From Clostridiales bacterium (GTDB lineage Bacteria; Bacillota; Clostridia; Lachnospirales; Lachnospiraceae): a stretch of 64,000 nt of DNA. The translations under genes were made by a program, and so were the position numbers. Under the pieces are notes generated by a model that was not told where the DNA came from, did no database searches, and saw only the letters and a program-made list of their open reading frames with translations. The first letter of the stretch is position 1; each line of letters starts with the position of its first letter. This document shows positions 32,281-42,352 of the stretch, one piece after another. The stretch is taken from positions 62,001 to 126,000 of the forward strand of contig JAQXKO010000025.1 of the NCBI GenBank assembly GCA_029010495.1. The letters run 5' to 3'.

Positions 32281-32547
32281 ATGATTAGCAAGGAACAGAA
32301 GGCTGCAATTATTGCAGAATTTGGTAAGACACCTGAGGATACAGGTTCAACAGAAGTGCAGATTGCTTTACTTTCAGCAAGAATCAAAGAGCTTACAGAG
32401 CACCTTAAGGACAACAAGAACGATCACCATTCAAGACGTGGTCTTCTTATGATGGTTGGTAAGAGACGTGGTCTCCTTGATTATCTTAAGTCAAAGGATA
32501 TCGACGCTTATCGTAATCTCATTGAGAAGCTTGGTATCAGAAAGTAA
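32281..32547 (+). CDS. rpsO: 30S ribosomal protein S15
   Basis: A protein of 88 residues, full length, with the signature [47 protein letters not shown] (in part). It binds the central domain of 16S rRNA early in 30S assembly. GGAGG precedes the ATG. A strong terminator follows, so it is the last gene of this unit; pnp, its usual next gene, lies 7.7 kb further on. Confidence 0.97.
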
Positions 32548-32575
32548 TTTCGTTACTGACAAATTAGCTTTTAAT

Positions 32576-32610
32576 AAAATCCCTCATGAAAGTGGGGGAT
32601 TTTTTATTTT
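32576..32610 (+). terminator. Intrinsic terminator after rpsO
   Basis: AAAATCCCTCA / TGGGGGATTTT pairs over 11 bp (one G-U) with the loop TGAAAG, followed by TTTATTTT. It closes the long rimP-rpsO unit. Confidence 0.9.
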
Positions 32611-32665
32611 GGCTCAAATAGTAAATGTTAATAATACAGATATAAGGTTATAATTATCTTAAGTA

Positions 32666-32694
32666 TTGCATATTATGTTAATTCATGCTACAAT
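32666..32694 (+). promoter_or_regulatory. Promoter of the folT-folC unit
   Basis: TTGCAT, 17 bases, TACAAT. The expected start point is close to 32701, just before the THF riboswitch. Together with the rpsO terminator and the riboswitch it accounts for the 320-base gene-free stretch after rpsO. Confidence 0.7.
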
Positions 32695-32713
32695 TACATC
32701 GCAAAAAAAAATA

Positions 32714-32810
32714 TGCAGAGTAGAAACATATGCGTTAAGTGTTAGCCGAACGGGGAGTTGTCGGTTAAACGAAAAGTATTCTTGCGGTTTATGTTTCGCA
32801 TCCCGCTGCT
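32714..32810 (+). ncRNA. Tetrahydrofolate (THF) riboswitch
   Basis: The region has the conserved parts of the THF riboswitch: AGAGTAGA at the 5' side, the invariant GCGTTAAGTG, a central hairpin (TTAGCCGA.../...TCGGTTAA), and the 3' block CGCATCCCGCTGC, which pairs back with the 5' GCAG to close P1. The next gene encodes a folate ECF transporter subunit and the one after it FolC, as expected for THF feedback. A downstream hairpin (32808-32833, GCTACA / TGTAGC) shares bases with the 3' arm of P1, so the two could be exclusive. Confidence 0.93.
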
Positions 32811-32833
32811 ACATAAGGATTTCCTTTTGTAGC
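32808..32833 (+). promoter_or_regulatory. Expression-platform hairpin between riboswitch and folT
   Basis: GCTACA/TGTAGC and AAGG/CCTT pair with one T-T mismatch. No U-tract follows. The loop-side TTTCCTT could instead pair with the folT Shine-Dalgarno AAGGAGG at 32856-32862, suggesting a translational switch; this is inference. Confidence 0.5.
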
Positions 32834-32867
32834 TATTTGCATAAATATACTACTTAAGGAGGTAATT

Positions 32868-33470
32868 ATGGATTACATTTCACGTAATTTAAAGGGACTT
32901 CTTTTGGATTTTAAGAAGTCCTTTTTTGGTGTAAGGCTTTCTACACCAATGTCAAAAACAATTATGCTTGCCCTGATGGGTGTGCTCACAGCACTTTCGA
33001 TTGCATTTGAAAGGGTGGTATATATTCCGGTAGGTGATACATCCAGATATTCGCTTACCTTTATGATGACCGCAGTATGCTGTGTCTCACTCGGCGCATT
33101 AAGAGGAGCAGTCGTTGCAGTGCTTGCTGATGTAATAGGCGCAATTATCGTTTATGGTAACGCTAATCCGCTTCTTACAATATGTGTGTGTTTATCGGCT
33201 CTTACATATGGTCTTATTTTATATTGTAATCAGAGCATTGTGAGAATTGTAATAGCCGTACTCATTGACCAGCTTATTATCAGTCTTATTTTGAAAACCG
33301 GTGCTCTTTCCGTATGGTATTACGGAATCAGCCAGTATTTTAAAGTATTCGGTACGAGAGTGCCTCAGGTGCTTATCATGATTCCGATTCAGATTGTCGT
33401 TCTTATTGTATTTTCAAAATTTATTTTTAAATATTTGCAGAACATAGTAAAGGAATATGTTGAAAAATGA
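32868..33470 (+). CDS. folT: Folate ECF transporter S component FolT
   Basis: A membrane protein of 200 residues with about five or six hydrophobic segments, e.g. TIMLALMGVLTALSIAF and LGALRGAVVAVLADVIGAII, the usual S-component pattern of the FolT family. It binds folate and docks on the shared EcfA-EcfA'-EcfT module, not in this window. The THF riboswitch upstream and FolC downstream (4-base ATGA overlap) fix the substrate. The start has a very strong AAGGAGG with 5-base spacing. Codons 8-20 also form a terminator-like hairpin. Confidence 0.92.
   Translation: MDYISRNLKGLLLDFKKSFFGVRLSTPMSKTIMLALMGVLTALSIAFERVVYIPVGDTSRYSLTFMMTAVCCVSLGALRGAVVAVLADVIGAIIVYGNANPLLTICVCLSALTYGLILYCNQSIVRIVIAVLIDQLIISLILKTGALSVWYYGISQYFKVFGTRVPQVLIMIPIQIVVLIVFSKFIFKYLQNIVKEYVEK
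32891..32927 (+). terminator. Intrinsic-terminator-like hairpin inside the folT coding start
   Basis: AAAGGGACTTCTT pairs with AAGAAGTCCTTT over 12-13 bp (one G-U) around a 9-base loop and runs into TTTTTT. It has the full form of an intrinsic terminator but lies at codons 8-20 of folT. Ribosomes starting at 32868 would prevent folding; untranslated RNA would allow it. Confidence 0.65.
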
Positions 33471-36022
33471 ATTATAAAGAAGCAAAAATGTTACTTTTAT
33501 CTGACAGGTTTAATCTGAGCATGCCCGGTACGGACAGGATTAAAAAGGTATTATCAATATTGGGAAATCCAAATGATAAAATAAATTGTATTCATGTTGT
33601 CGGAAGCAATGGGAAGGGCTCTGTGTCAACAATGCTTTCGTCAATCTTTGGCATGTCAGGTCTAAATGTAGGTTTATTCAACTCTCCATATATTACAGAA
33701 TTAACCGAATACATTTCTCTTAACGGTAAAAACATGTCAGAAGAGGATTTTGCTTACTATTTTAACAAGGTTTATGAGTGTCTGTCACAATGCGGGATTG
33801 TGTTGACACATTTTGAAGTGATTACAGTTATGTCGGTGCTTTATTTCGCAGATAATAATTGTGATTTATGTATTTATGAAGCCGGAATGGGGGGCACATC
33901 AGATGCGACTAATGTGTTCCCGCATTCTTTATTAACCATTCTTACGACAGTATCATTAGAGCATATTGAATATCTTGGTAATACAATAGAAAGTATTATA
34001 AGCAATAAGCTCGGAATAGTCGGCAGAGGAGAAACTGTTCTTACATGCTTTGATAAATATCAGGATATTATTGAAAAATATTGCAGGGATAATCAGTTAA
34101 ATCTATGTATCGGTGACTCAAAAGCAGTTAATGTGAAGGAACTATATATTGACAGGATTTGCTTCGAGTATTGCGGGGTGGAATATAATCTTAATACAGG
34201 AGCCGTTTATCAGATTAATAATTGTATTACGGTCATAAATGCAATAAAAATAATTAACGGACTCTGTTTGTTTGATAATGTGGCTGACGAAACTGTAAAA
34301 AAAGCGTTTGAAACATTTTATATTAAATCACGTTTTGAAATTATCTGTAAAAAGCCTCTTATTATTGTTGACGGTGCACACAATTCCGAATGTGCTGAAT
34401 CAATAGCCGATATGATAAAAATGCATGGAATTGATAATTATATTCTTGTAACAGGAGTGATGAAGGATAAGGATTACAAATCCATTTATAATAAAATTGC
34501 TGTACATGCGAAAACAATAATTACAATTGACAATAATATTCCAAGAGCATTAAAAAGTGATCTTCTTGCGAGGGAGTGCCGTAATTACTGCGATAATATT
34601 ATTGATGCGCGCGATGCTGTTTATGCGGCAGAGTATATTTATAATCATGCAGAGGAAAATACAATTGTTTTATTTGCCGGCACTCTGTATATGACGGATT
34701 CATTTAAGGAAGCAGTCAGGCTGTTTTATGACTCAGAGTATTGTTTGAAATCATCGGCTGATATGATTCACAGACTTACGTCCAAAAGCTTTTATTCGAC
34801 ACATTATCCGATTGATGACATGAAGAGTATGCTTCGTTATTTTAATAATCCCGAAGAGTCCTACAAAATAATACATGTGGCAGGAACAAACGGCAAAGGT
34901 TCAACATGTAAAATGCTTGACGGACTTTTAATAAATAATAATCTTAATGTCGGCTTATTTACGTCTCCTTATATTAAAATATTCAATGAAAGAATCACAT
35001 TTAATGACACACCGATTGAAGATGCTTATTTATCTTATATAGGCAGTTTGGTTTTGGAAAAAATGACAATAATGGGGCTTGATTTAAATCAGTTTGCGAT
35101 AATTACATTAATTGCATTTATTTATTACAGAATAAAAAGGGCTGATTATGTTATCCTTGAAACAGGTCTTGGAGGTACTTATGATCCGACAAATGTAGTA
35201 GACAAGCCTGCTGTATCTGTCATTACAAATATCGGGCCGGACCATATTGCCGTGCTTGGTGATACCATTTCTTCTATAGCAAAGGCAAAGGCAGGTATTA
35301 TTAAGAAGGATGTACCTGTTGTTGTATATCCTTCGGAGGAAGAGGCAGTCAATGTAATTATTAATCAGGCAAAGACAGTGAAATCCAATGTAATATTTGC
35401 AGATAAGCAGGAAATATCATCAGTTGATTATGACAGTTTTGTATATAACAATTATCGATACAGGATTGGATTAGTCGGAGATTACCAGAAATTAAATGCT
35501 CTTACTGCAATAAAAACTTATGAAGCGTTAATAAATGACAAAAGGTTAAACATGGAGCCTGAATATATTTCCGACTGCCTGTCTAAAACCTCTTGGCCGG
35601 GCAGAATGGAAAAATTATCAGATAATCCGTTATGTTATGTCGATGGCGGACACAATGTTCAATGTATTGAAAATGTACTTGCATTTTTTGAAAAATACTA
35701 TCCATCAAGAAAAATAATAGTTATAGCCGGCTTTATGAAGGATAAGCAATATGATGAGATGATTAAGCTGTTATGTGAAAAATGCAGCAAAATATTTCTC
35801 ACACAGGTAAATTACCCGCGCTCTCTTAACATTATGGAATTGACTAAAATCAAAAATAGATATAAAATATTATCTGATGTGTCTGAATCGTTGGGGGAGG
35901 CTTTTTTGAAGGCAACAGAAGCTTATGATGATAATTCGGTTATATTTATTACCGGTTCTCTGTACCAAATTAATGATGCATATAATTTGTTTGATTTTGG
36001 AGGAGTGAATGGAAGAAAATAA
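33467..36022 (+). CDS. folC: Tandem FolC-FolC fusion (folylpolyglutamate synthase)
   Basis: A protein of 851 residues, twice the usual 420-440. Copy 1 (about 1-425) has the P-loop HVVGSNGKGS, YEAGMGGTSDATN and IIVDGAHN. Copy 2 (about 435-851) has HVAGTNGKGST, TSPYIKIFNERI, ETGLGGTYDPTN, NIGPDH and YVDGGHN. Each is a complete Mur-ligase-like FolC unit. Copy 2 is closer to canonical; copy 1 lacks the ERI Arg (TEYI) and has SLEH for the usual DH. FolC adds glutamates to folates so they are kept in the cell. It is coupled to folT (ATGA) and under the THF riboswitch. The frame is unbroken, so this is a true fusion. Confidence 0.9.
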   Translation: MNYKEAKMLLLSDRFNLSMPGTDRIKKVLSILGNPNDKINCIHVVGSNGKGSVSTMLSSIFGMSGLNVGLFNSPYITELTEYISLNGKNMSEEDFAYYFNKVYECLSQCGIVLTHFEVITVMSVLYFADNNCDLCIYEAGMGGTSDATNVFPHSLLTILTTVSLEHIEYLGNTIESIISNKLGIVGRGETVLTCFDKYQDIIEKYCRDNQLNLCIGDSKAVNVKELYIDRICFEYCGVEYNLNTGAVYQINNCITVINAIKIINGLCLFDNVADETVKKAFETFYIKSRFEIICKKPLIIVDGAHNSECAESIADMIKMHGIDNYILVTGVMKDKDYKSIYNKIAVHAKTIITIDNNIPRALKSDLLARECRNYCDNIIDARDAVYAAEYIYNHAEENTIVLFAGTLYMTDSFKEAVRLFYDSEYCLKSSADMIHRLTSKSFYSTHYPIDDMKSMLRYFNNPEESYKIIHVAGTNGKGSTCKMLDGLLINNNLNVGLFTSPYIKIFNERITFNDTPIEDAYLSYIGSLVLEKMTIMGLDLNQFAIITLIAFIYYRIKRADYVILETGLGGTYDPTNVVDKPAVSVITNIGPDHIAVLGDTISSIAKAKAGIIKKDVPVVVYPSEEEAVNVIINQAKTVKSNVIFADKQEISSVDYDSFVYNNYRYRIGLVGDYQKLNALTAIKTYEALINDKRLNMEPEYISDCLSKTSWPGRMEKLSDNPLCYVDGGHNVQCIENVLAFFEKYYPSRKIIVIAGFMKDKQYDEMIKLLCEKCSKIFLTQVNYPRSLNIMELTKIKNRYKILSDVSESLGEAFLKATEAYDDNSVIFITGSLYQINDAYNLFDFGGVNGRK

Positions 36023-37046
36023 TGTCGGCCTTGAAAAAGAATTATCAAATAAAAGAAAAGAAAATCGATTTTCTTTCGAGGATTTTGAAAAGGCTGAGAA
36101 TAATGAAAATTTTATTGCGGATAAAGAAGCGATAATTATACCGGACGATAATTCCGATACATCACTATCTGAAAAGGATAATACAGAAGAGACGACTGAA
36201 GGAAGCGAAAATATCAGCATAGAAGAGTCGGCTGAGGAAAGAGAAAGTGTCAGCATAGAAGAGCCTGCCCAAGGAAGCATAAAGGATAACGAGTACGATG
36301 CTTTGGAATCTGCTGAAAATCAAATATTTACCGAGGAAGAAAAATACAGGGCATTTTTGCAGGAAGCATTTTCAAACCCGGCAAATGAGGCTATGACAGC
36401 AGATTTGGAAGAGAAGAAAGAGGCACTAAACACAGAGCTGCTTGAGGGAAAATTAATGCTTGAACAGCTTCGTGAAGAAGTTGAAAGGGAAGAAGAAAAG
36501 ATTGCTCCGATAAGAGATGAATATATGAAAAAAATTGAAGAGATGGAGCAACAGATAACAAAGCTTGAGCTTGACCATAAAATTAAAGTTAAAAATCATG
36601 TTAAGCGAAAAGCTGAATTGAATGATCTTAAAAAAGAAATGAAAAATGAACAGATAAATCAGGAGGTTTATCAGGATGTTGCCGATGCATTAAAAGAACG
36701 TGCGGAGAAAACATTATTTAATAAACAAAAAATTCTTGATTTATACAATGAAAAGCAGAATGAAGCTGATGATTCCAAAAATAAATTCATTGATATGATG
36801 CTGAAGATAGAGGAGCTTGAAGCCGGAAAGGATGAGGAAGAAGCAGCTCATCAGCTGGAAGAGGAAGAATTCCTTCAAAATAAAGAGAAGCTGGAAGAAG
36901 AACTTAATCAGATAAAAAATGAACTTGCTGAAAAAACATCTGATTATATGGAAATAAAATGTAAATATGAGACTGATTTGAACGATTTTTCAAATAAAGA
37001 AAATGATTATCTTGAGATAGTCGCTAAGTTATCAGAACTCAAATAA
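36009..37046 (+). CDS. Acidic coiled-coil protein of unknown function
   Basis: A protein of 345 residues, not recognised. Residues 1-115 are acidic and low in complexity (runs of Glu, Ser, Asp). From about 120 to the end it is almost all heptad-like Lys/Glu/Leu coiled coil, with short breaks. No membrane segment or signal peptide is present, so it should be cytoplasmic. It overlaps folC by 14 bases behind a GGAGG site and is followed, 30 bases on, by a membrane protein whose cytoplasmic N-terminus is also helical. A scaffold or partner role is conceivable but unproven. It lacks ATPase motifs, so it is not SMC-like. Confidence 0.7.
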   Translation: MEENNVGLEKELSNKRKENRFSFEDFEKAENNENFIADKEAIIIPDDNSDTSLSEKDNTEETTEGSENISIEESAEERESVSIEEPAQGSIKDNEYDALESAENQIFTEEEKYRAFLQEAFSNPANEAMTADLEEKKEALNTELLEGKLMLEQLREEVEREEEKIAPIRDEYMKKIEEMEQQITKLELDHKIKVKNHVKRKAELNDLKKEMKNEQINQEVYQDVADALKERAEKTLFNKQKILDLYNEKQNEADDSKNKFIDMMLKIEELEAGKDEEEAAHQLEEEEFLQNKEKLEEELNQIKNELAEKTSDYMEIKCKYETDLNDFSNKENDYLEIVAKLSELK

Positions 37047-37076
37047 ATAGAAAAGTATTTATAACAGGGGAATAAA

Positions 37077-38150
37077 ATGGGAGAAGAACAATTATTTGCA
37101 AGTAAAGCGGAAAAATTATATTTGAAAATTGAAAAAGCCCAGCAAAAGCTTAATGAAGCTGATGATCCGGCTTCGATTAATGCAATAGGTAAGCTTATTA
37201 TTAAACTTCAGAACGAATTGCAGATGACGGGTAATCAACTGTACATATCAAAAGCAAATGAAATAATCAATCTCAGAAAGTTTAATAAGCAGAAGAAAAA
37301 TATAAATTGGAAGCCAATTGTGTTATTACTTCTTTTATTTGTGTTATTTGGCGCTTTGATGTATGGAGGTAAAGATAACGATACACCTAAACAGACCGGC
37401 AATAAAGGAACCGGTACTCAGTCGGCAAACATTAAAACTGCTACCCCTACAGTGAAAGGTGATAATTCGCAGATAGGTGCAGTTGAACCTGGAGGAGAGA
37501 ATACGATTCAGCCTACAGAGGAATTGAAGTCTACAGAAACGCCTGTACCTTCAAATACAAAATATGTTACGCCTACAAAGCAGATTATCGCATCTGCCGC
37601 AACAAACACCCCTACGCCGACGAAGAAGGTTAACACGCCTACACCGACGAAGAAGGTTAACACCCCTACGCCGACGAAGAAGGTTAATACACCTACGCCG
37701 ACGAAAAAGGTGAATACACCTACGCCTACGCCGACGACGAAAGTTAATACACCTACACCGACGAAGAAGGTTAATACGCCTACGCCTACGAAGAGAGTTA
37801 ATACGCCTACGCCGACTAAGAAGGTTAATACACCTACGCCTACGCCGACTCCGATTTATGTTAAAAATTCTTCGATGAATTTTTCAACCAAATGGCCAAG
37901 TAATTCTTACAGTTATATTTATCAATACAATTTTGACTGTTCGGCACTTAATAAAAATAAGGTTACTTCAAAAACCAGGGTTACGGTAACATTTTCCACG
38001 ACTATTACCGATGTTGTTCAGTCCTGGAACGGAACTGTAACTAATTCGGGTAATACTATTATTATTACAGGATTTACCGGGTCAAATCCGGGCTTTAGTA
38101 TTGAAGCAGGTGAAAATCTGAAAATACTTTATATAACTGTAGTATATTAA
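37077..38150 (+). CDS. Membrane-anchored protein with TPT repeats and CBM2-like C-terminal domain
   Basis: A protein of 357 residues. Residues 1-78 are a charged helical region, probably cytoplasmic; 81-98 (PIVLLLLLFVLFGALMYG) is a membrane anchor. A Ser/Thr/Pro linker leads to about nine copies of a NTPTPTKKV repeat (177-259). The last 95 residues form a beta-rich domain (YIYQYNFDCS, VTVTFSTTITDVVQSWNG, ILYITVVY) resembling family 2-type cellulose-binding domains, similar in plan to the end of the next gene product. No catalytic domain is seen. It may hold the cell to cellulose or act with the following cellulase. Confidence 0.72.
   Translation: MGEEQLFASKAEKLYLKIEKAQQKLNEADDPASINAIGKLIIKLQNELQMTGNQLYISKANEIINLRKFNKQKKNINWKPIVLLLLLFVLFGALMYGGKDNDTPKQTGNKGTGTQSANIKTATPTVKGDNSQIGAVEPGGENTIQPTEELKSTETPVPSNTKYVTPTKQIIASAATNTPTPTKKVNTPTPTKKVNTPTPTKKVNTPTPTKKVNTPTPTPTTKVNTPTPTKKVNTPTPTKRVNTPTPTKKVNTPTPTPTPIYVKNSSMNFSTKWPSNSYSYIYQYNFDCSALNKNKVTSKTRVTVTFSTTITDVVQSWNGTVTNSGNTIIITGFTGSNPGFSIEAGENLKILYITVVY
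37605..37853 (+). repeat. 27-base tandem repeats encoding NTPTPTKKV
   Basis: About nine head-to-tail units with small variations and two with an extra CCTACG-type insertion. All changes are multiples of three, so the frame is kept. Length could vary by slippage between strains. Confidence 0.92.
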
Positions 38151-38170
38151 TTTCACATTTTGAGGTGTTT

Positions 38171-40009
38171 ATGGAAGAAAATAAAGAGAAAAAAAAGAAT
38201 TATAAAAATCTGATAATTTTTATATTGTTGTTGATGTTTATCGGAAGTGGCGGGTATCTTTTGTTTGGCAGCAAAAATGAGCTGGATAACGAATATGTCA
38301 GCAAAGGTAACAAACCGACTTATTCTGCCAACGATAATCCTGCAGGCGGGAATACTGCTGAGATAGGCAAAGATAATGATGAAGAATCTTTGGAATTAAC
38401 AGGCAGTCCATCGGAGGACGTCACACCGACAAATGAACCGACAAAATCAGAACCGACAGTCGAAATTACTGAGGTAATTACACCTACAGGAAATGTAAGC
38501 GGAACGGCAACTGCTTCGCCTACGCCTGAAAAAAAGCCCGTGACTGTTCCTACAAAGACTGTTACAAAGGCTCCTGCGGTAACACTGACAAAGGTTCCTA
38601 CAAAATCACCTGTAAATGTATCAGGGACACCTGTTTCAATTCACGGAAAGCTTGGTGTATCGGGCACAAAGCTTGTTGATAAGAATGGAAAGGCATTTCA
38701 GCTCAAGGGCGTCAGTACTCACGGAATTGCATGGTTCCCTGGTTATGTAAATAAGGCTGCTTTTCAAAATCTTCGAGATGACTGGGGTGCTAACACAGTC
38801 AGACTTGCAATGTATACTCATGAATCTGGCGGATATCTTGCGGGAGGCAATAAAGCTGAGCTTGAAAAAATTGTTACAAATGGTGTTCAGTATGCAACCG
38901 AATTGGGAATGTATGTAATTATTGACTGGCATACACTTAACGGCGCCGGTTCAAATCCTGCCAATACATTATCAGATGCAAAGCTTTTCTGGAATAAAAT
39001 TTCTAAGAAATATGCATCCTATAATAATGTTATATATGAAATATGTAATGAGCCAAACAGCGGAGCGTCCTGGTCCTCAGTAAAGGGGTATGCTGAAGCG
39101 GTAATTAAGGTTATCAGAGCTAATGACCCTGATGCAGTCATTCTTATCGGAACTCCAACCTGGTGCCAGGATGTTGACCAGGCAGCTGCAAATCCGATTA
39201 AGGGTCAGAAAAACATCATGTATACTCTTCATTTTTATGCCGGAACGCATAAACAATGGCTTAGAGATAAAATGGTTGCGGCAATCAACAAAGGACTTCC
39301 TATATTTGTCTCTGAATTCGGTATTACAGATGCATCCGGTAACGGAGCATGCGATATTAAAGAAGCAAACACCTGGATAAAAACGCTTGACAGCTATAAC
39401 GTAAGCTATATTTGCTGGAACCTGGCTAATAAAAACGAATCGTCAGCCATGATAAAATCGGGCGTATCAAAAACCAGCGGATGGACGTATAGTGATTTAA
39501 AGGATGAAGGAAAATGGTTTGTCGATGTTCTGCGCGGAAGAATAAGTCAGGACAAGGTGGGAGCATATAAGTCCGGTACAGGCGAAAATATAGTTGCTCC
39601 AAAGCCTTCGTTAACACCTACAAAGTCACCCGGAAGTGCAACGCCTACTCCTACAAAGACGCCTGTTGCAACACCGACCGTAAAACCTGTAGATAAACCC
39701 GAAAGCTTTTCGGCAAACGGTGTTACACTAAAGCCAGAGAATTCCTGGGAAGGCAACTGTCAATATGCCATAAGCTTTCAGAATAATGACGGCTCTCCTG
39801 TAGATGATTGGACTATCAAAATCCAGTTTGAATCTGCCGTGTCGGTTAATAACGGATGGAACTGCAGTTATTCTGTCGAAAATAATAATATTATTATTAA
39901 ACCCGCAAGTTATAATAAATATTTACCTGACGGAAAATTAAGCAATGTCGGTCTTATAATTCATAGTGAAAAAGGTTTTAAAATTAAGAATGTAACAATT
40001 ACATATTGA
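38171..40009 (+). CDS. Membrane-anchored GH5 endoglucanase with CBM2-like domain
   Basis: A protein of 612 residues. A Lys-rich N-terminus and one membrane segment (IIFILLLMFIGSGGYLLF) act as an uncleaved anchor; a Thr/Pro/Val-rich linker runs to about 155. The GH5 domain (about 160-455) has FQLKGVSTHGIAWF, IDWHTL, the acid/base YEICNEPN (Glu near 293), HFYAGTH and the nucleophile VSEFG (Glu near 381), as in subfamily GH5_2 cellulases. A second TPT linker leads to a C-terminal CBM2-like domain (about 515-612). It hydrolyses beta-1,4-glucan at the cell surface. TGAGG upstream favours the ATG at 38171 over the track's GTG. Confidence 0.92.
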   Translation: MEENKEKKKNYKNLIIFILLLMFIGSGGYLLFGSKNELDNEYVSKGNKPTYSANDNPAGGNTAEIGKDNDEESLELTGSPSEDVTPTNEPTKSEPTVEITEVITPTGNVSGTATASPTPEKKPVTVPTKTVTKAPAVTLTKVPTKSPVNVSGTPVSIHGKLGVSGTKLVDKNGKAFQLKGVSTHGIAWFPGYVNKAAFQNLRDDWGANTVRLAMYTHESGGYLAGGNKAELEKIVTNGVQYATELGMYVIIDWHTLNGAGSNPANTLSDAKLFWNKISKKYASYNNVIYEICNEPNSGASWSSVKGYAEAVIKVIRANDPDAVILIGTPTWCQDVDQAAANPIKGQKNIMYTLHFYAGTHKQWLRDKMVAAINKGLPIFVSEFGITDASGNGACDIKEANTWIKTLDSYNVSYICWNLANKNESSAMIKSGVSKTSGWTYSDLKDEGKWFVDVLRGRISQDKVGAYKSGTGENIVAPKPSLTPTKSPGSATPTPTKTPVATPTVKPVDKPESFSANGVTLKPENSWEGNCQYAISFQNNDGSPVDDWTIKIQFESAVSVNNGWNCSYSVENNNIIIKPASYNKYLPDGKLSNVGLIIHSEKGFKIKNVTITY

Positions 40010-40034
40010 TTGAAATTTATTTTTATGATATAAT
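40006..40034 (+). promoter_or_regulatory. Candidate upstream pnp promoter (P1)
   Basis: TTGATT, 17 bases, TATAAT, with extended -10 TGA. The -35 box contains the cellulase stop codon. Its -10 box overlaps the 5' arm of the terminator hairpin that follows the cellulase gene. Confidence 0.6.
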
Positions 40035-40069
40035 ACAGGTTGGTGTATGCCGACCTGTATTATTTGTTT
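40030..40069 (+). terminator. Terminator after the cellulase gene
   Basis: ATAATACAGGTTGG pairs with CCGACCTGTATTAT over 14 bp (one wobble) around the 6-base loop TGTATG, followed by TTGTTTT. It ends the folT-cellulase unit. Confidence 0.8.
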
Positions 40070-40091
40070 TATCGATTATAATTTAATAATT

Positions 40092-40120
40092 TTTATGGTG
40101 AAATATAAGATTATTATAAT
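40092..40120 (+). promoter_or_regulatory. Candidate second pnp promoter (P2)
   Basis: TTTATG, 17 bases, TATAAT. The start point near 40127 would include the whole long leader hairpin. Confidence 0.45.
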
Positions 40121-40151
40121 GGGTTTTATAAGTCTATAAGGCGGTGACACA

Positions 40152-40202
40152 ATGAATAAGCTGTTTATCGTAACTTCTGAAAAGCACCTGATTTATAAAT
40201 AA
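40152..40202 (+). CDS. Possible 16-codon leader ORF upstream of pnp
   Basis: ATG preceded by AAGGCGGTG at workable spacing, reading MNKLFIVTSEKHLIYK and stop. It spans the whole 5' arm of the pnp leader hairpin and much of the loop, so its translation would unfold the hairpin. It has no known homologue in memory; it may be a chance ORF. Confidence 0.35.
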   Translation: MNKLFIVTSEKHLIYK

Positions 40203-40240
40203 TGTCTGTATCAAATGTTTTTCAGTAGTTACGACAGCTT
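40158..40240 (+). ncRNA. Long leader hairpin of pnp
   Basis: The 5' arm (AAGCTGT-ttat-CGTAACT-t-CTGAAAA-g-CA, 40158-40186) pairs with the 3' arm (40216-40240, TG-t-TTTTCAG-t-AGTTACG-ACAGCTT). This gives about 24 pairs including one G-U, with one T-T mismatch and one 4-base bulge. It ends 15 bases before the pnp Shine-Dalgarno. E. coli pnp has an RNase III-cut leader hairpin used for autoregulation; a similar role here is inference. Confidence 0.75.
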
Positions 40241-40267
40241 AAATAACATAACAAAAGGAGTAAAAAA

Positions 40268-42352
40268 ATGTTTAAAAGTTTTTCAATGGAACTTGCAGGC
40301 AGAACACTTACCGTAGATGTCGGCCGTGTTGCTGCCCAGGCTAATGGTGCTGCATTAATGCACTATGGCGATACTGTAGTTTTATCAACTGCTACAGCAA
40401 GTGAAAAGCCAAGGGACGGAATTGATTTCTTCCCACTCAGTGTTGAATATGAGGAGAAGATGTATGCAGTAGGAAAGATTCCGGGAGGCTTTAATAAAAG
40501 AGAAGGAAAGGCAAGTGAAAATGCTATCCTTACTTCAAGAGTAATAGACAGACCTATGCGTCCGTTATTCCCAAAGGATTACAGAAATGACGTTACAATT
40601 AATAACCTTGTGCTTTCTGTTGATCCTGCATGTTCACCGGAGCTTACGGCTATGCTCGGCTCTGCAATTGCAGTAGCCATTTCAGATATTCCGTTTGACG
40701 GTCCTTGCGCTACAACACAGCTTGGTATGATTGACGGAGACTTTATTGTTAATCCTAATTCGGAGCAGACAGCAGTATCTGATCTTAAGCTGACTGTTGC
40801 TTCTACAAGAGATAAAGTAATCATGATTGAAGCAGGCGCAAATGAGATTCCTGAAGAGAAGATGATTGAGGCTATTTATCTTTGTGATTCTGTAAATAAG
40901 GATATCATTGCTTTTATTGATAATATTGTTTCAGAGGTTGGTAAGGCAAAGCATGAATATACAAGCTGTGCAATTCCGGAAGAATTATTTGCAGCAATTA
41001 AGGAAATTGTACCTCCTGCTGATATGGAAGTTGTAATGTTCGCTCCTGAAAAGCAGGTAAGAGAAGAAAGAATCCGTAATTTAAAGGATACTCTTGCTGA
41101 AAAGCTTGCTGATAATGAAGAATGGCTTCCTCTAATCGATGAAGCTGTTTACCAGTACGAAAAGAAAACTGTTCGTAAGATGATTTTAAAGGACAAGAAG
41201 AGACCTGACGGAAGAGAAATCACACAGATTCGTCCGCTTGCCGCAGAGGTTGATATCATTCCGAGAGTTCATGGCTCATCTATGTTTACACGTGGACAGA
41301 CACAGATATGTGATATCGTAACTCTTGCTCCTTTATCAGATGCACAGAAGATTGACGGTCTTGACGAAAATACTGTTTCAAAGAGGTATATGCATCATTA
41401 TAATTTCCCTGCTTATTCTGTAGGTGAAACTAAGGTTTCGAGAGGTCCAGGTCGTCGTGAAATTGGTCATGGCGCATTAGCTGAAAGAGCTCTTTTACCT
41501 GTACTTCCTTCAGTAGAAGAATTCCCTTATGCGATTCGTGCAGTATCGGAGACATTTGAATCCAACGGTTCTACATCAATGGCTTCCACTTGTGCTTCAT
41601 GTATGTCTCTCATGGCTGCCGGTGTTCCTATTAAGCGTATGGTTGCAGGTATTTCATGTGGCCTCGTTACAGGCGAGACAGATGACGATTATATTCTCCT
41701 TACTGATATTCAGGGTCTTGAAGATTTCTTCGGCGACATGGACTTTAAGGTAACAGGTACAACAGAGGGTATCACTGCAATTCAGATGGATATTAAGATT
41801 CATGGTCTTACAAGACCTATCGTTGAAGGCGCTATTGCAAGATGTCGTGAAGCAAGAATGTTCATTATGGATACATGTATGAAGAAAGCAATTGACGCTC
41901 CAAGACCTACTGTAAATGAGTACGCTCCAAAGATTATCCAGATTCAGATTGATCCTACTAAGATAGGTGATGTTGTTGGTCAGAGAGGTAAGACAATTAA
42001 CGCCATTATTGAAGAAACCGGTGTAAAGATTGATATTACTGACGACGGTGCAGTTTCAATCTGCGGTACAGACATGGCCATGATGGAAAAAGCACAGAAA
42101 TATATTGAAATTATCGTTACTGATTTTGAGGAAGGACTTGTTCTTGAAGGAAAGGTAGTAAGTATCAAAGAATTTGGTGCTTTCCTCGAATTTGCTCCCG
42201 GCAAGGAGGCAATGGTTCATATTTCTAAAATTTCTGATCATAGAATTAATCATGTTGAGGAAGTTCTCACTCTTGGTGATGTAGTGAAGGCAGTTTGCCT
42301 CGGCAAGGACAAGATGGGCAGAGTAAGCTTCTCAATTAAGGACGTTAAATAA
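40268..42352 (+). CDS. pnp: Polyribonucleotide nucleotidyltransferase (PNPase)
   Basis: A protein of 694 residues, the normal length. Two RNase PH domains (GRTLTVDVGRVAAQANGA, EKMYAVGKIPGGFNKREGK; and DGREITQIRPL, FTRGQTQ, PGRREIGHG), then a KH domain with IGDVVGQRGKTINAIIEETG and an S1 domain (LEGKVVSIKEFGAFLEFAPG). It degrades RNA 3'-5' using phosphate. The start ATG follows AAAAGGAG. It stands apart from rpsO, with its own promoters, leader hairpin and terminator. Confidence 0.97.
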   Translation: MFKSFSMELAGRTLTVDVGRVAAQANGAALMHYGDTVVLSTATASEKPRDGIDFFPLSVEYEEKMYAVGKIPGGFNKREGKASENAILTSRVIDRPMRPLFPKDYRNDVTINNLVLSVDPACSPELTAMLGSAIAVAISDIPFDGPCATTQLGMIDGDFIVNPNSEQTAVSDLKLTVASTRDKVIMIEAGANEIPEEKMIEAIYLCDSVNKDIIAFIDNIVSEVGKAKHEYTSCAIPEELFAAIKEIVPPADMEVVMFAPEKQVREERIRNLKDTLAEKLADNEEWLPLIDEAVYQYEKKTVRKMILKDKKRPDGREITQIRPLAAEVDIIPRVHGSSMFTRGQTQICDIVTLAPLSDAQKIDGLDENTVSKRYMHHYNFPAYSVGETKVSRGPGRREIGHGALAERALLPVLPSVEEFPYAIRAVSETFESNGSTSMASTCASCMSLMAAGVPIKRMVAGISCGLVTGETDDDYILLTDIQGLEDFFGDMDFKVTGTTEGITAIQMDIKIHGLTRPIVEGAIARCREARMFIMDTCMKKAIDAPRPTVNEYAPKIIQIQIDPTKIGDVVGQRGKTINAIIEETGVKIDITDDGAVSICGTDMAMMEKAQKYIEIIVTDFEEGLVLEGKVVSIKEFGAFLEFAPGKEAMVHISKISDHRINHVEEVLTLGDVVKAVCLGKDKMGRVSFSIKDVK

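Follow-up and report, generated by a model that had tools for sequence, protein, structure and literature searches.

How might a riboswitch act on a terminator-like hairpin that lies inside the reading frame of the gene it controls? The question arises at the folT locus of a Clostridiales bacterium (Lachnospiraceae), on a stretch of 64,000 nucleotides (hereafter the window). The original prediction for this DNA was a two-stage switch, in which THF blocks the start of translation of folT and the bare RNA then folds into a terminator within the gene.

A THF-I riboswitch between rpsO and folT

The genes and signals around the aptamer are:

32281-32547, + strand: rpsO, ribosomal protein S15 (TIGR00952, E 1.5e-38; synteny)
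32576-32603, + strand: rpsO terminator, present in the window species
32666-32694, + strand: possible promoter TTGCAT-N17-TACAAT with an extended -10 TGC (by eye; weak -35)
32714-32810, + strand: THF-I riboswitch aptamer (RF01831), P1 strands 32714-32718 and 32806-32810
32868-33470, + strand: folT, folate ECF transporter S component (TIGR04518, 74.1 bits, residues 29-184)
33467-36022, + strand: folC-folC tandem fusion of 851 aa (TIGR01499 in two stretches), its start overlapping the folT stop

The RF01831 match covers the full model (1-99), scores 89.3 bits where the gathering score is 36 (E 1.7e-19), and lies upstream of the folate genes folT (TIGR04518) and folC (TIGR01499). Judged by this homology, the aptamer is a THF-I riboswitch with THF as the predicted ligand, in agreement with the THF aptamer originally proposed from 32714 onward. 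The possible promoter, with its weak -35, was absent from the output of a scan of the sequence.

We compared five species of the same genus, the window species (G000) and four others (G001 to G004), a small sample in which two species are close. Each has exactly one THF match, and in all five rpsO is the upstream neighbour of the THF-folT locus. G000 and G004 carry the rpsO terminator and an intergenic region of 155-166 nt. In G001, G002 and G003 (loci L021, L026 and L030) the aptamer begins 19-25 nt past the rpsO stop codon; these 19-25 nt hold no terminator and no counterpart fits there, and the riboswitch of these species appears to sit within the rpsO transcript.

Predicted leader folds that expose or hide the Shine-Dalgarno sequence

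Between the aptamer and the folT start we distinguished three elements:

32808-32833, + strand: anti-sequestor hairpin, predicted to take the 3' strand of P1 and leave the Shine-Dalgarno sequence free
32812-32870, + strand: predicted sequestor, in which AUUUCCUU (32819-32826) pairs with AAGGAGGU, and an outer CAUAA with UUAUG of the start
32856-32862, + strand: Shine-Dalgarno sequence AAGGAGG of folT, identified from the sequence (folT start at 32868)

The very strong AAGGAGG noted earlier is indeed found before the folT start, at 32856-32862. The hairpin 32808-32833 had been described as sharing bases with P1 and as hiding the Shine-Dalgarno sequence through its own CCTT. The sharing stands, the first three bases of the hairpin being part of the P1 3' strand. 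The hiding does not, as the hairpin is the anti-sequestor, of which an equivalent is present in all five genus species. In each of the five, a hairpin built from the last 3-4 aptamer bases, and hence competing with P1, encloses a CCU strand; this strand is common to the anti-sequestor and the sequestor, and its alternative partner is the Shine-Dalgarno sequence. When P1 was held in folding, the Shine-Dalgarno sequence was paired in 5/5 species. The arms vary among the species, yet both leader pairings are kept. The leader is thus predicted to be a translational OFF switch in all five species, made of mutually exclusive folds linked to P1, and the exclusive folds support the earlier claim that the riboswitch acts on translation initiation. 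In G000 the anti-sequestor folds at -13 kcal/mol (z -4.8) versus -17.7 kcal/mol for the sequestor, and the thermodynamic fold favoured the sequestor in most species. Since the sequestor is the stabler fold, the unbound state would have to be set kinetically by the anti-sequestor, which is made earlier.

A conserved terminator-like hairpin inside the folT reading frame

One further element lies within the gene:

32891-32927, + strand: intrinsic-terminator-like hairpin and U6 tract, inside folT at codons 8-20

The hairpin and U-tract were found exactly where they had been placed. The arms (32891-32903 and 32913-32925) form 13 pairs around a loop of 9, and the U6 occupies 32922-32927. At -15.3 kcal/mol (z -3.8) the stem, 32891-32925, was equalled by none of 200 dinucleotide shuffles. 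In codon-preserving shuffles, for which synonymous codons were drawn anew for the first 40 residues according to window codon usage, 1000 times per species, the observed hairpin was never reached (0/1000 in each of the five species, 0/5000 in all), indicating that the protein sequence does not account for it. Against a background consisting of the window's contig (115 genes, 129 kb coding), the folT hairpin with its U-tract was the most stable in-gene case, scoring -14.8 against -11.6 for the next-best hairpin, which has a poor tail. A second hairpin, GGUGUA/UACACC, follows the U-tract directly in the window species (32928-32947).

The hairpin is present with a tract of U5-U7 in all five genus species, and its start lies 17-23 nt past the A of the folT ATG. 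The 45-nt stretch around it aligns without gaps, and 93.8% of the cells of the 13-pair stem are paired in the five-species alignment, with changes on both sides in 5 of the 13 pairs (10-36, 15-31, 16-30, 17-29 and 18-28). The covariation score of 0.438 was matched by 0/500 shuffles, and three of five covariation measures were likewise reached by none of 500; slid registers scored 0.08-0.25, with 34-71% paired and 0-1 pairs changed on both sides. Small as the sample is, the covariation points one way, and comparison of the sequences argues that the in-ORF hairpin is conserved at the RNA level and lineage-specific. The original prediction had looked to relatives with the same riboswitch for compensatory changes in folT codons 8-20, and the stem with such changes is present in 5/5.

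A downstream start codon, which would make the hairpin an ordinary leader terminator, was rejected in view of the strong Shine-Dalgarno sequence upstream of 32868 in the window. In G003 and G004 no in-frame ATG, GTG or TTG occurs from the hairpin to the Met inside the first membrane segment, indicating that the hairpin is translated. The TIGR04518 domain starts only at residue 29 and the hairpin therefore sits in the segment before it, which also holds a conserved K and an invariant SFFG. In the nearest other genera, FolT seems to begin only downstream of this segment. No FolT relatives were found in viral contigs.

With a stable stem, a U-tract directly after it and a stability beyond chance and codon constraint, the in-ORF hairpin probably acts as an intrinsic terminator. 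That the protein sequence forces it by chance might be argued from Leu CUN and Glu-Ser GAG-UCC codons, which are naturally complementary, and from the ES.(E) motifs that many FolT proteins carry N-terminally; set against 0/5000 codon-preserving shuffles and compensatory changes at 5 pairs, we find this hardly credible. Another alternative is a conserved mRNA structure with no terminator activity, which would modulate early elongation, targeting to the membrane or mRNA stability, and whose U-tract is just Phe-Phe. This would agree with the invariant SFFG, TTT being a frequent Phe codon where genomes are AT-rich, and with a stem that starts just past the footprint of the initiating ribosome (nt 17-23), where it does not hinder initiation. 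We consider it improbable, given that A-tract, stem and U-tract come in terminator order in 5/5 species, and that the conserved K and SFFG precede the FolT domain, in a part where the FolT of the nearest genera appears not yet to have started.

Terminator position across the family

The family comparison covered 142 THF loci of the family and order, the 5 genus members and 137 others. A U-tract stands immediately before the ATG in 92 of the 142 (91 of the 137 outside the genus), and at these loci the 3' arm of the stem typically contains the Shine-Dalgarno sequence; as judged from sequence, a single leader hairpin of this kind can serve to terminate transcription as well as to mask the ribosome site. 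Compact in-ORF terminators (<= -14 kcal/mol, within nt 15-60) occurred in none of the 137 other loci and only in the genus five. Other in-ORF matches were weak (-9 to -12), and one in G113 reached -15.0, but its position is nt 81-115 and an intact leader terminator precedes it. Between the Shine-Dalgarno stem and the ATG, G000, G001, G002 and G003 have no leader U-tract; G004 has a remnant UUCUUUU behind the Shine-Dalgarno sequence and looks intermediate between the leader and in-ORF forms. Most simply, the terminator function would have shifted in this genus from the leader into the ORF: the Shine-Dalgarno-holding terminator of the family would have lost its U-tract, and the function would have been rebuilt inside the ORF. 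We rejected the idea that the lineage generally places terminators within genes behind its riboswitches, since none was seen after the TPP and FMN riboswitches in these five genomes; several of these riboswitches have a Shine-Dalgarno stem and U-tract before the ATG.

Possible links between THF and the in-frame hairpin

Our leading view, a tentative one that we hold at somewhat under an even chance, is THF-dependent, ribosome-gated termination at the in-ORF hairpin. Without THF, the P1 3' strand would join the anti-sequestor, AAGGAGG would be free and ribosomes would initiate; a promptly started ribosome would cover the hairpin, and RNA polymerase would pass. With THF, P1 would be locked, the UUUCCUU strand would pair with AAGGAGG and ribosome entry would be blocked. 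The RNA behind RNA polymerase would then be bare, the hairpin at codons 8-20 could form over the U-tract, and transcription would end before folT and folC, termination at 32927 cutting off folC as well. This two-stage logic fits the anatomy of the locus and is plausible.

In folding, the terminator arms were free in both leader states, and no shared antiterminator, as a transcriptional switch based on RNA antitermination would have, was conserved among the five species. With no conserved THF-dependent pairing that frees or blocks the terminator, the one link to THF that is evident is ribosome loading, and a terminator not gated by ribosome entry would not be regulated by THF. We lean towards gating by ribosome loading, and hence by THF. 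An always-working full terminator would silence a conserved folate operon, and terminators elsewhere in the family are by their predicted structure ligand-linked. On the other side, a terminator about 30 nt after the AUG works almost unhindered by ribosomes in E. coli, where the ribosome needs 100-200 nt to draw level with RNA polymerase unless the polymerase is held at a pause (PMC4824070); such a terminator escapes ribosome protection, which counts against gating. Terminator stems on the contig begin 6-32 nt past stop codons (<=10 nt in 5 of about 14), and terminators close behind stop codons serve as a proxy for uncoupled transcription (review PMC7858274), a hint that again speaks against gating.

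These points also bear on a THF-independent attenuator, in which the in-ORF hairpin would stop a fixed fraction of transcripts and keep folT-folC low relative to rpsO, with THF acting on translation only. Such an attenuator agrees with a terminator predicted to form in both leader states, with early in-ORF terminators that work regardless of ribosomes in E. coli, and with U-tracts of only 5-7 U, which permit partial read-through. Moreover, transcription leaving rpsO in G001, G002 and G003 meets no stop signal before the in-ORF element, and halting read-through from the strongly expressed rpsO is a possible second use. The element is nevertheless kept in G000 and G004 despite their rpsO terminator and 155-166 nt of intergenic sequence, and since elsewhere in the family the terminator and the ligand-controlled Shine-Dalgarno stem typically go together, unlinking the two would mean a loss of control; we judge the attenuator a serious but rather unlikely alternative. 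Most transcriptional riboswitches operate by direct switching, which here would mean an RNA antiterminator that forms without THF and independently of ribosomes, the 5' arm pairing with L3 (GGGGAGUU) or with the leader. The arm-L3 pairing is possible, reaching -13.0 kcal/mol in G002 and -12.6 kcal/mol in G001, where it ranked at 0.03 and 0.06 against codon-preserving shuffles. It was rejected for being no better than the shuffles in three of the five species (G000 0.28, G004 0.63, G003 0.20), as were other arm-leader pairings, for which the five species share no partner. As both leader states also leave the arms free, direct switching seems very improbable.

Relation to known systems

Ribosome-gated termination would set this genus apart from several known arrangements. 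The usual Lachnospiraceae THF-I riboswitch (RF01831) has the same aptamer, the same folT, the same expected OFF logic and a ligand-controlled Shine-Dalgarno sequence, but there the Shine-Dalgarno sequence is the 3' arm of the terminator and the U-tract touches the ATG, whereas in the genus form the sequestor and the terminator are separate hairpins and the terminator is translated. Rho-coupled translational riboswitches (E. coli; the M. tuberculosis Mbox, PMC12810186) likewise have ligand-blocked translation and a stop on the untranslated RNA; they use Rho, whereas the candidate stop here is a Rho-independent in-ORF hairpin. At pyrBI and B. subtilis bmrB (PMC4191407) an intrinsic terminator also lies inside a translated frame and read-through depends on the ribosome, but that frame is a leader peptide whose translation is sensed, and here it is the structural gene, with ribosome entry set by the aptamer. 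A partial literature search found no description of a terminator inside an ORF behind a riboswitch.

With some reserve, we regard the locus as possibly a split platform, in which a metabolite-controlled translation switch is combined with a ribosome-gated, Rho-independent in-ORF terminator that replaces the Shine-Dalgarno-fused one. If so, riboswitch platforms can relocate into the gene under their control, and intrinsic polarity would be a built-in second stage of a riboswitch, in a group of bacteria whose transcription may outrun translation. The locus would also offer a simple natural test of whether ribosomes match RNA polymerase at the start of a gene in Clostridia. Were terminators sought in leaders alone, such switches would be misclassified as translation-only.

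Genes downstream of folT

A double folC follows folT also in G001, G002 and G004, and the available part fits in G003. The cellulase expected downstream of folT-folC exists, a GH5 enzyme with CBM2 at 38165-40009, behind two further ORFs after folC. An ORF between folC and the cellulase (37077-38150), for which no Pfam family was found, contains long (TPTPTKK) linker repeats. Past the end of the cellulase, at 40009, comes a terminator-like hairpin. rpsO and pnp adjoin in many bacteria; in the window the block of folT, folC, a coiled-coil-linker protein and the GH5 cellulase lies between them (32281-42352).
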